Shown here one piece after another: positions 11,560 through 13,825 of a stretch of DNA of 23,622 nt. Within the stretch, counting starts at the first letter, position 1; each line of letters opens with the position of its first letter. The notes beneath the pieces were generated by a model. That model was not told the origin of the DNA and did no database searches. It was given only the letters and a program-made list of their open reading frames with translations. The stretch spans positions 1 through 23,622 of the IMG/VR virus record IMGVR_UViG_3300021962_000662; one strand, written 5' to 3'. Both the position numbers and the translations under genes were made by a program. The DNA is from a virus.

Positions 11560-12138
11560 ATGGCAAACGTATTAGTAGAATATACCCCATTTAAGTCCGT
11601 CCTTAGAGAATCTAAGGAAAGACCGGGCGTATTCGAAGTTGAAGGCGTAATGCAGAGAGCAGGAGCACAAAACCAGAATGGCAGAGTATACGATAAAAAA
11701 GTCCTTCTTAGAGAAGTTAACAACTACATGGAGAACTTTGTTAAGGTGGGCAATGCTTATGGAGAACTAGATCACCCAGAATCTCCAATTGTATCTCTAA
11801 AGAATGCCTCCCACGTAGTTAAAGATCTATGGTGGGATGGAGATGATTTATGCGGTAGAGTAGAACTACTTAATACTCCATCCGGGAATATTGTAAAAGA
11901 AATTATTAAAGGTGGACACACCATCGGTATCTCTTCTAGAGGTACTGGATCTGTTAAACCTACAAACGAAGGATATTTAGAAGTTCAAGATGACTTCGAG
12001 TTAGTATGTTGGGATTTCGTTTCCAATCCATCTACTCACGGAGCATTTATGAACCCTATTTCATTGAACGAAGGAGCTGTAAAGCAAGATAAGTATGGTA
12101 AATTAGATTCCATTCTTAACGATATCTTAAGAGCTTAA
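11560..12138 (+). CDS. Prohead maturation protease, T4 gp21-like
   Basis: This 192-residue serine protease is slightly shorter than T4 gp21 (212). It sits in the prohead core and cleaves scaffold, core proteins, the capsid protein and itself after (L/I)-x-E. Family landmarks are the N-terminal substrate-like segment, GVMQRAGAQNQNGRVYDKKV at 29-48, the catalytic His region GELDHPES with H72, and the nucleophile region GGHTIGISSRGTGSV with S125/S126. Which of the two Ser residues is the nucleophile is not settled by eye. The C-terminus (SLNEGAVKQDKYG onward) has possible self-cleavage sites. It starts 3 bases after the preceding stop and is followed by two tiny basic genes before a terminator. 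Confidence 0.95.
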   Translation: MANVLVEYTPFKSVLRESKERPGVFEVEGVMQRAGAQNQNGRVYDKKVLLREVNNYMENFVKVGNAYGELDHPESPIVSLKNASHVVKDLWWDGDDLCGRVELLNTPSGNIVKEIIKGGHTIGISSRGTGSVKPTNEGYLEVQDDFELVCWDFVSNPSTHGAFMNPISLNEGAVKQDKYGKLDSILNDILRA

Positions 12139-12157: not shown

Positions 12158-12328
12158 ATGACATCACAAGAGTTATTTGACAAGATTGCTGAGCATTTTG
12201 CTACCATGCAATCAGAACACGAAAAGACAACCAAAGCTGCTCACTCTAGAGCTAGAAAGGCAGCCGGTGAGATCAAAAAATTGATCACTGAATACAGAAA
12301 AGCCTCAACAGCTGAAGACAAAGCCTAA
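12158..12328 (+). CDS. Small lysine-rich histone H1-like protein
   Basis: This 56-residue ORF starts 20 bases after the protease stop. It reads as an acidic-amphipathic first half (SQELFDKIAEHFATMQSEHE) and a basic second half (KAAHSRARKAAGEIKKLITEYRK). The order of a short Phe-containing helix, then S/T-R-A-R-K-A-A-G-E-I-K-K-L, resembles the small histone H1-like proteins of Bacteroidota, which have G-T-R-x-R-K-x-x-Q-x-L-K-x-L at the equivalent place. If correct it is a DNA-binding, condensing protein, possibly packaged with the genome. The similarity is by eye only. A small scaffold helper is the alternative. Its size hides it in ordinary ORF lists. Confidence 0.6.
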   Translation: MTSQELFDKIAEHFATMQSEHEKTTKAAHSRARKAAGEIKKLITEYRKASTAEDKA

Positions 12329-12330
12329 TC

Positions 12331-12447
12331 ATGGGTAAGTATCAGAAAGAGAATCAAAAGCCTCTTAGCAGAGCTTCTAAGATGAAGAGAAGCAAGAGAG
12401 TGCAAGCCAATCATCAAGTGATGAAAAAATTGGAACAAAGCATTTAA
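12331..12447 (+). CDS. Very basic 38-residue protein
   Basis: The ATG follows the previous stop by 2 bases and the frame ends 20 bases before the terminator hairpin, so it is the last gene of the terminase-portal-protease block. The product, with SRASKMKRSKRVQANHQVMKK in its centre, has more than a third Lys/Arg/His and no hydrophobic core. It is probably disordered and binds nucleic acid or an acidic partner such as the scaffold. No family is recognised. Support comes from tight spacing and from composition like that of its neighbours. Confidence 0.5.
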   Translation: MGKYQKENQKPLSRASKMKRSKRVQANHQVMKKLEQSI

Positions 12448-12467
12448 GAAGCCTGCTACCTTAGGCG

Positions 12468-12492
12468 CCCCGCTCCGGCGGGGTTTTTTTTT
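12468..12492 (+). terminator. Intrinsic terminator after the protease block
   Basis: A perfect 6-bp stem, CCCCGC (12468-12473) with GCGGGG (12478-12483), closes a TCCG loop and is followed by nine T residues and, after one G, another T run. It lies 20 bases after the last stop codon and separates the terminase-to-protease block from the scaffold-capsid block. Confidence 0.9.
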
Positions 12493-12510
12493 GTTTTTTA
12501 GTTTCCGGAT

Positions 12511-12519
12511 GTATTTATA
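12511..12519 (+). promoter_or_regulatory. GTATTTATA motif, candidate late promoter of scaffold-capsid block
   Basis: This NTATTTATA match lies just after the terminator and 97 bases before the scaffold ATG, so it would give a long untranslated leader, unlike most other copies. Role inferred. Confidence 0.35.
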
Positions 12520-12565
12520 TATGAATATATCGTCACATACGGTATCTATACTATAAAAATTTTAT

Positions 12566-12597
12566 TACGTTTGACCGCTCGGTCACAATTAAACGTA
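12566..12597 (+). promoter_or_regulatory. Palindromic element in the scaffold leader
   Basis: TACGTTT (12566-12572) is the exact reverse complement of AAACGTA (12591-12597). Between them lies the near-perfect palindrome TGACCG-CT-CGGTCA (12572-12585). In RNA this could fold as a two-part hairpin with a 6-base bulge; in DNA it could be a binding site. The first eight bases, TACGTTTG, also fit the TAnnTTTG promoter box of Bacteroidota, but no matching upstream TTG box is seen at the usual distance. It lies 20-50 bases before the scaffold start. Confidence 0.45.
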
Positions 12598-12616
12598 GAA
12601 ATCACAAGTTAACATT

Positions 12617-13825
12617 ATGGCTAACAAAGATTTATTCAAGCAGGCTATTGCTGATGCTAAATCTATTCGTGAAGCTGCTATCACTAACGCAAAACTTGCT
12701 TTAGAGGAGTCGTTAACTCCACAGTTAAAAGAGCTTTTAGCTCAACGTTTAGCTGAGATGGAAGAAGAAGCAGAGAACCAAGAGGTTCTTGCTGAGGCTG
12801 AAGTTGAAGAGACTGAACACATGGAGGAAGGTGACTACACGGAAGAAGAAGTAGCGGAGGCTGAAGAAGCTGAAGAAAAAGAGGAAGAAGAAGGCGAAGA
12901 AGCTGGTGAAGAAGAAGCTGAGAACGACTCTGAAGAATCAGAGGACGAAGCTGAAGAAGATCTAGAGGTTGAAGACATGACTGTCGAAGACCTAAAAGAC
13001 CTAATCCGTGATATCCTTTCTCAGGAAATAGGTGACATGGAAGAGCCAGCAGGTGAAGAAGGTGATGAGGAAGCTGAGGATATGGTAGGCATGGATATGA
13101 CTGCTGAACCTGAAGCTGAAGCCGGAGAGGAAGAAATCAACCTCGACGAACTCATGGCTGAATTAGCTGCTATGGCTAACGAAGAAGAAGTAGTTGCTGA
13201 AGAAGAAATCGAAGAGACTATCAACGATCCAGAAACTGAAACTGCTCACGGTAACGTAGCAGAAGAAGAAGAAGACACTATGGAAGAAGGAGCAATGGAT
13301 AAGATCAAGCAATTAGTTGCTAAGATGCAGCAAAATGCTAAAGAGGGTAAACCACTTATCGATGACGAGTTCTTCAAGTTCGTAGATAAGTTAGACAAAC
13401 TAGACCCAGGTACTGTTACCTCTGGTATGGCTAAGTCTGGTGCTGGTAGAACTTCTTCTATTGGTGAAGCTGAGGAATTAGCTGAAGCTCTAGAGACTAT
13501 CGAAACTCTTCGCAAAGATCTTAACGAAGTAAACTTACTAAACGCTAAGTTACTTTACGTTAATAAGGTATTCAAGGCTAACACCCTTACTGAATCACAG
13601 AAAGCTACAGTTATTGCTGCTTTCGACAAAGCTGAGACAGTTAAAGAAGTTAAGCTTGTTTTTGAAACGGTTAGCGAAAACATTCCTTCTGGTAAAAAAG
13701 AAGTAGTTAAGGAAGCCAAGGGCTTTGCTTCAGCTGCTGTAGGAACATCTGACAAACCAGAAGTAATTGCTGAAGCTAATCAGGCTGTATTACGCATGCA
13801 AAAACTTGCAGGAATTATTAAATAA
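12617..13825 (+). CDS. Acidic prohead scaffold protein, gp22-like
   Basis: This 402-residue protein lies directly before the major capsid gene, the position of T4 gene 22. Residues 1-60 are helical with cleavage-like sites (LLAQRLAEME). Residues 55-215 are extremely acidic, with long Glu/Ala runs. Residues 215-402 are mixed helical, including MDKIKQLVAKMQQNAKEG, AEELAEALETIETLRKDLNE and a C-terminal basic end (LRMQKLAGIIK). Scaffold proteins of this group form the internal core and are degraded by the prohead protease. Several L-x-E triplets fit that. The call depends on position, acidity and helical content; sequence similarity to T4 gp22 (269 residues) is weak, and the protein is larger. 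No Shine-Dalgarno sequence precedes its ATG. Confidence 0.85.
   Translation: MANKDLFKQAIADAKSIREAAITNAKLALEESLTPQLKELLAQRLAEMEEEAENQEVLAEAEVEETEHMEEGDYTEEEVAEAEEAEEKEEEEGEEAGEEEAENDSEESEDEAEEDLEVEDMTVEDLKDLIRDILSQEIGDMEEPAGEEGDEEAEDMVGMDMTAEPEAEAGEEEINLDELMAELAAMANEEEVVAEEEIEETINDPETETAHGNVAEEEEDTMEEGAMDKIKQLVAKMQQNAKEGKPLIDDEFFKFVDKLDKLDPGTVTSGMAKSGAGRTSSIGEAEELAEALETIETLRKDLNEVNLLNAKLLYVNKVFKANTLTESQKATVIAAFDKAETVKEVKLVFETVSENIPSGKKEVVKEAKGFASAAVGTSDKPEVIAEANQAVLRMQKLAGIIK

Follow-up and report, generated by a model that had tools for sequence, protein, structure and literature searches.

A short histone H1-like (Hc1) gene of changing position and a conserved hairpin among T4-like phage head genes

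Results

A short Hc1 gene in a T4-like head module

A 56-residue member of the histone H1-like family Hc1 (Pfam PF07432) is encoded at positions 12158-12328, on the + strand, in the window, by which we mean the whole 23,622-base viral record analysed here. It is followed at 12331-12447 (+) by a basic ORF of 38 residues, p38, so that the two very small genes reported between protease and scaffold by an earlier, sequence-only reading are confirmed as ORFs on that strand. Our preferred interpretation, to which we assign a probability of about 0.6, is that Hc1 is a phage copy of a host-type short nucleoid protein that is made late, binds nucleic acid and helps to organise DNA.

The window carries a T4-like head module comprising terminase, portal (PHROG 213, E 1.4e-69), a gp21-type head maturation protease (11560-12138, +; PHROG 207, E 4.7e-53) and major head protein (PHROG 138, E 3.2e-76). 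The protease gene is the upstream neighbour of Hc1. The downstream neighbour is an acidic gene in the scaffold (gp22) position (12617-13825, +), which has no family match of its own and is identified by its position ahead of the major head protein gene. From portal through p38 the genes share one strand and are separated by short gaps, and the first strong terminator-like + strand site downstream of portal, a predicted intrinsic terminator at 12467-12484 (+), closes the protease-Hc1-p38 unit 19 nt past the p38 stop, where the sequence-only reading had also ended it; for these reasons the genes from portal to p38 are likely to be co-transcribed. The phage is T4-like and its host is probably among the Bacteroidota, the latter because its nearest cultured relatives are the immuto isolates on Flavobacterium (four records; portal 72.8% identical).

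Identity, size, charge and predicted fold of Hc1

The proposed H1-like character of the 56-residue product is borne out by the Pfam Hc1 profile, which it matches with E 1.2e-10 and a score of 41.5 bits (cut-off 23.5), covering profile positions 2-56 of 57; by this measure it is a true family member, and it is the sole match when the whole window is searched with PF07432. Neither this ORF nor p38 gave anything significant in PHROGs or NCBIfam, so that phage annotation based on PHROGs would leave Hc1 unnamed, and neither a sequence-profile search nor Foldseek matched the 56-residue protein to a PDB entry at E<=0.001. When 30 phage and cellular members were aligned, 26 matched PF07432 at E<=0.001; the four that missed it are counted against the nucleoid interpretation.

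The AF2 model of the protein is a two-helix hairpin (residues 3-21 and 26-55, pLDDT 97.6) with no strand, and the winged-helix domain of eukaryotic linker histone H1 is accordingly not found. Residues K26, A32, R33, K34, K40, K41 and Y46 are invariant across the 30 aligned members. The conserved basic residues of helix 2 (K26, R33, K34, K40, K41, R47, K48 and K55) cluster on one face, and the conserved hydrophobic/Ala face is turned about 160 degrees away from it; the conserved acidic residues E38, E45 and E53 lie between the two. In the model this basic face fits a role in nucleic-acid binding.

Chlamydial Hc1 has a lysine-rich DNA-binding C-terminal tail. A tail of that type is absent here, the 56-residue protein stopping where the profile stops. 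Both products had been described as basic, which holds for p38 (11 K/R versus 2 D/E, net +9, pI 10.8) and only mildly for Hc1 (net +2, pI 9.1). All 33 distinct phage Hc1 alleles are 55-61 residues long with net charges of +2 to +7. Among 28 cellular ORFs, taken from 30 loci (L172-L201, two of which yielded none), 21 are 57-60 residues long with net charges of +1 to +5 and seven exceed 70 residues, several of these with K-rich C-terminal tails and one (L183) with an over-long start.

Conservation, distribution and kinship of Hc1

Hc1 dN/dS is 0.08-0.10 between the window and its three nearest distinct alleles from the protease/scaffold slot and about 0.05-0.12 across all close pairs, values that place the gene under purifying selection. 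Protease dN/dS was left out as invalid for two relatives (L012 and L015), whose genes have one additional codon and had not been realigned. The sequence-only reading had hinged in part on conservation in related phages, and both Hc1 and p38 do recur there. Among the best 80 of 393 protease relatives, 77 of them readable downstream, Hc1 follows the protease gene in all 12 with a protease at least 83% identical and in none of the 65 less similar ones. This split is not strict and is partly a sampling effect, since a further relative (L256) has a protease only 76.6% identical yet carries Hc1 and p38 in the slot.

A whole search of 20 related records (21.9-104.8 kb, all of them fragments, as viral contigs are) found Hc1 in three, in each case as a slot copy. 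With 17 of these fragmentary records lacking it, Hc1 is by this survey dispensable, a point also counted against the nucleoid interpretation. The family is carried by 37 of 119 Bacteroidia genomes. Six large T4-like contigs were chosen on protease and length alone, and five carry one Hc1 each, two of the six (L225 and L216) having been known as carriers beforehand. Judged from coordinates, Hc1 and the protease gene share a strand in four of the five carriers, with Hc1 15-17 kb upstream; in the fifth (G437) it lies near the opposite contig end.

Sixty-three IMG/VR viral loci were anchored on Hc1, and in these the gene stands after the protease in five, directly after groEL in 33 and elsewhere in 25. 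The groEL-then-Hc1 order is kept by immuto-like phages (L001, 5001-5174; L104-L118, L121-L123 and L125-L139; the 33 IMG/VR loci), and groES precedes groEL wherever such a locus extends far enough. The ORFs were read in 10 of the 25 remaining loci (8 of 21 in the largest group and 2 of 4 of L140 type). In six of those eight largest-group loci a homologue of window ORF 2878 was seen by eye within a few kb downstream of Hc1; in the window this ORF is located upstream of terminase, a stretch in which the whole-window PF07432 search found no Hc1. In two phage groups a DUF5856 (PF19174) gene occurs about 1 kb upstream of Hc1 (L096, 5023-5382; L140, 4969-5340). Hc1 is thus common in these T4-like phages and mobile in position, occupying at least three places: the protease/scaffold slot, behind groEL and, in still other phages, upstream of terminase.

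The Hc1 tree, built from 73 sequences over only 61 columns and hence provisional, joins the window copy to the three nearest slot alleles (97/84) and this group next to upstream-type phage copies (95/81, 98/95). The slot alleles L010, L012 and L013 stand apart from the window copy, and the slot group requires at least two changes, which suggests more than one event of slot filling or of Hc1 allele replacement. A single clade (99/97) unites all copies of the groEL, upstream and slot types with a Flavobacteriales sequence.

The small basic ORF p38

No family match to p38 was obtained in Pfam, PHROGs or NCBIfam, and a search of 50,697 phage records gave no credible match (best E 9). The ORF nevertheless recurs after Hc1: besides the window it is found in L005/L006 (one difference), L009 (58% identical) and L256 (44%, 39 residues), always just 5' of the same hairpin, which is described below. 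In L009 and L256 the Hc1 stop overlaps the p38 start in a TAATG; in the window the two are 2 nt apart. Twelve residues are invariant over four aligned sequences, representing three distinct alleles and one near-copy. Among the 12 slot-bearing relatives p38 is present in three and absent in eight, the remaining one (L004) being cut off inside it. Between the window and L009 its dN/dS is about 0.58, which is weak evidence by itself.

Such weak constraint would also be expected of a chance ORF in an untranslated stretch, as would the failure to match any family or to appear in named phages; we consider this explanation unlikely, as the start, the frame, the length (38-39 codons) and the 12 invariant residues are the same in three diverged alleles. 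On this comparison p38 is probably real and an optional partner of Hc1, to which it would be translationally linked.

A conserved hairpin at the gp21/gp22 junction

A hairpin of the form GCCU-GCUACCUU-AGGC is predicted at 12451-12466 (+), beginning three bases past the p38 stop and lying 5' of the terminator. Its DNA, GCCTGCTACCTTAGGC, occurs once in the window and is present in all 11 slot-bearing relatives readable at this point (L004 ends earlier) and also in other phages. A scan of IMG/VR found it in at least 119 stretches, while a complete scan with the reversed control found 21. Each of 13 records known to hold the hairpin has exactly one exact copy. Of 86 distinct contexts, 81 place it <=19 nt past the stop of an ORF of >=50 residues (by script), three (L005, L009 and L256) place it after p38 (by eye) and two (L296 and L312) after neither. 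The ORFs upstream fall mainly into one BLAST cluster containing gp21 homologues (73 of 104), and those downstream into one containing the scaffold (62 of 88). On this evidence many aquatic T4-like phages carry the hairpin as a mark of the gp21/gp22 junction.

In the 77 readable protease-anchored loci, a set independent of the motif, the best match to the hairpin has no mismatches in 14, two in five and at least five in 58; the last group is within the range of shuffles (4-10), so that most gp21 units of this set lack the hairpin. Pairing is kept by changes on both sides in the two-mismatch forms ACCT/AGGT and GTCT/AGAC, while the form GCCT/AGGT (L356) combines a G-U pair with a loop change. 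A complete scan with the outer two pairs left free returned 69 stretches, and over all loci examined this pattern was found in 49 distinct places, all of them paired (46 GC/GC, two compensatory and one G-U). Some relatives have a related form, CCTCGGACGCTACCGAAGGCAGG, at the same junction. The window stretch at the hairpin folds into two hairpins (z -2.5). At gathering score the window has no Rfam match, and around the hairpin all Rfam matches stayed below threshold.

Two possible identities for the hairpin were set aside. Pairing with 23S rRNA was noticed post hoc as an 11-nt complementarity to what we take to be the 23S sequence, and it is not kept by the variant GGACGCTACCGAAGGC of other relatives. 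An origin as a host element is not favoured either, the exact 16-mer being found in 1 of 395 Bacteroidia genomes, which is about chance level; the reversed 16-mer likewise gave one match among those listed. Literature listings yielded nothing relevant on a GCUACCUU hairpin in phage or on structured RNA in head morphogenesis.

Ahead of the scaffold gene, the untranslated stretch 12500-12616 shows strong conservation among the slot-bearing relatives and contains TATTTATATATGAATATATCGT and, by eye, an apparently covarying hairpin (ACGTTT/AAACGT versus ACGTC/GACGT). It is a possible late promoter and leader element.

Discussion

In the interpretation that we prefer, the phage gene would be a copy of the short H1-like nucleoid protein of many Bacteroidia and Fidelibacterota (Marinimicrobia), made in the late, structural phase of infection in the window phage. 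The stripe of lysines and arginines on helix 2 of its hairpin would contact nucleic acid, and the protein would help to organise the DNA of the phage (or what remains of the host's), ahead of packaging or while it proceeds, in the manner of a nucleoid protein and not as a part of the capsid. The PF07432 match, the purifying selection, the predicted hairpin with its basic face, the host-like size and charge, the spread of the family among Bacteroidia genomes and its presence in five of the six large contigs all argue for this. The net charge of just +2 and the conserved E38, E45 and E53 argue against it, and adjacency to groEL, in 33 of the 63 loci, would equally fit a role in protein assembly.

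The sequence-only reading had proposed that Hc1 is made with the prohead and could hence be packaged, and this is not supported, because the gene has at least three places among related phages, including one after groEL in immuto, and the candidate gp21-type cleavage triplet is not conserved among slot alleles. The corresponding explanation, in which Hc1 and perhaps p38 would join the scaffold in the prohead and be packaged along with the genome, as the internal proteins of T4 are, draws on the location of both genes between protease and scaffold in the window lineage and on the frequent FDLRKFLxEN-like starts of other slot ORFs (by eye; L256), which look like a targeting signal of the T4 kind. 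Hc1 itself has no such N-terminus, its helix 1 being that of the family. The triplet I-A-E at residues 10-12, picked out with the gp21 cleavage consensus, is missing from the slot alleles of L009, L010, L013 and L256, so that no T4-type targeting peptide with a conserved cleavage site is found, and in most Hc1-bearing phages the gene is located elsewhere; we therefore regard packaging as rather improbable. The phage protein closely resembles host-type short Hc1 in sequence, size and charge, which would also suit a factor that takes the place of host Hc1 on the host chromosome, or competes with it there, and silences transcription. The short forms lack the chlamydial tail, and a gene within the head unit, as in the window lineage, would come late for a take-over. 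In favour of such a role, PMC12619734 cites a drop in synthesis when E. coli expresses chlamydial Hc1; on balance we think the role unlikely. Least convincing to us, and very unlikely, is a split H1 in which Hc1 is the folded core and p38 a basic tail acting in trans, a detached version of the fused tail of Bacteroidia. The TAATG overlap, the p38 net charge of +9 to +10 in three alleles and the longer cellular ORFs with K-rich tails are in its favour; p38 is missing from 8 of the 12 slot-bearing relatives, and its composition is unlike that of the fused tails.

In other phages (L017-L083) the gap between protease and scaffold is a variable slot that is empty or holds unrelated ORFs, several with FDLRKFLxEN-like starts; these starts may be capsid-targeting signals. 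By eye, the N-terminus of five further window ORFs (1548, 2057, 2878, 9996 and 10214) looks amphipathic and ends in what may be an xxE cleavage site, reminiscent of T4 head-targeting peptides. A wider reading of the locus, held tentatively and at somewhat less than even odds, is that Hc1-p38 is cargo of this slot, bounded downstream by a phage RNA element not described before. In many aquatic T4-like phages that element, the hairpin, would act on the 3' end of the gp21 message, through stability, termination or translation, and so contribute to keeping protease output low while that of scaffold and capsid is high. That the hairpin acts at an mRNA 3' end is a guess; the hairpin at this site is a candidate for a new class of regulatory RNA.

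Should Hc1 bind DNA as we propose, T4-like phages of Bacteroidota would carry and shuffle a host-type nucleoid protein, and an H1-like role in lytic infection could be tested in culture, with Immutovirus on Flavobacterium. The locus also illustrates that very small genes of head operons can be conserved and yet left as hypothetical.

Comparison with known systems

A few large phages were already on record as carrying H1-like genes: PF07432 proteins were described in 2025 in four complete moraphage genomes, with function unknown and packaging speculated (PMC12619734). As here, these are large aquatic tailed phages predicted on Bacteroidota; a gene-order or conservation analysis is absent from the passages of that account consulted, whereas the present case adds a T4-like group, a changing Hc1 position and a partner ORF. 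In the literature searched, that paper alone names PF07432, and titles and abstract openings gave nothing further on short phage or Bacteroidota Hc1. New here are the additional phage group, the selection on the gene, its predicted fold, its changes of position and p38. Short Hc1 of Bacteroidia and Fidelibacterota shares with the phage protein its length (57-60 residues), hairpin core, RARKAxGExKKL-type motif and similar charge, but the phage copies cluster with one Flavobacteriales sequence, apart from most Bacteroidia. Chlamydial HctA/Hc1 belongs to the same Pfam family and has a homologous core; its lysine-rich tail is what the phage protein lacks. In the nearest cultured relative, Flavobacterium phage vB_FspM_immuto (Immutovirus), Hc1 is encoded by immuto35A_74 and is 57% identical to that of the window, but it is found at 42 kb, after groES-groEL, and an unrelated 75-residue ORF fills the gap between protease and scaffold.
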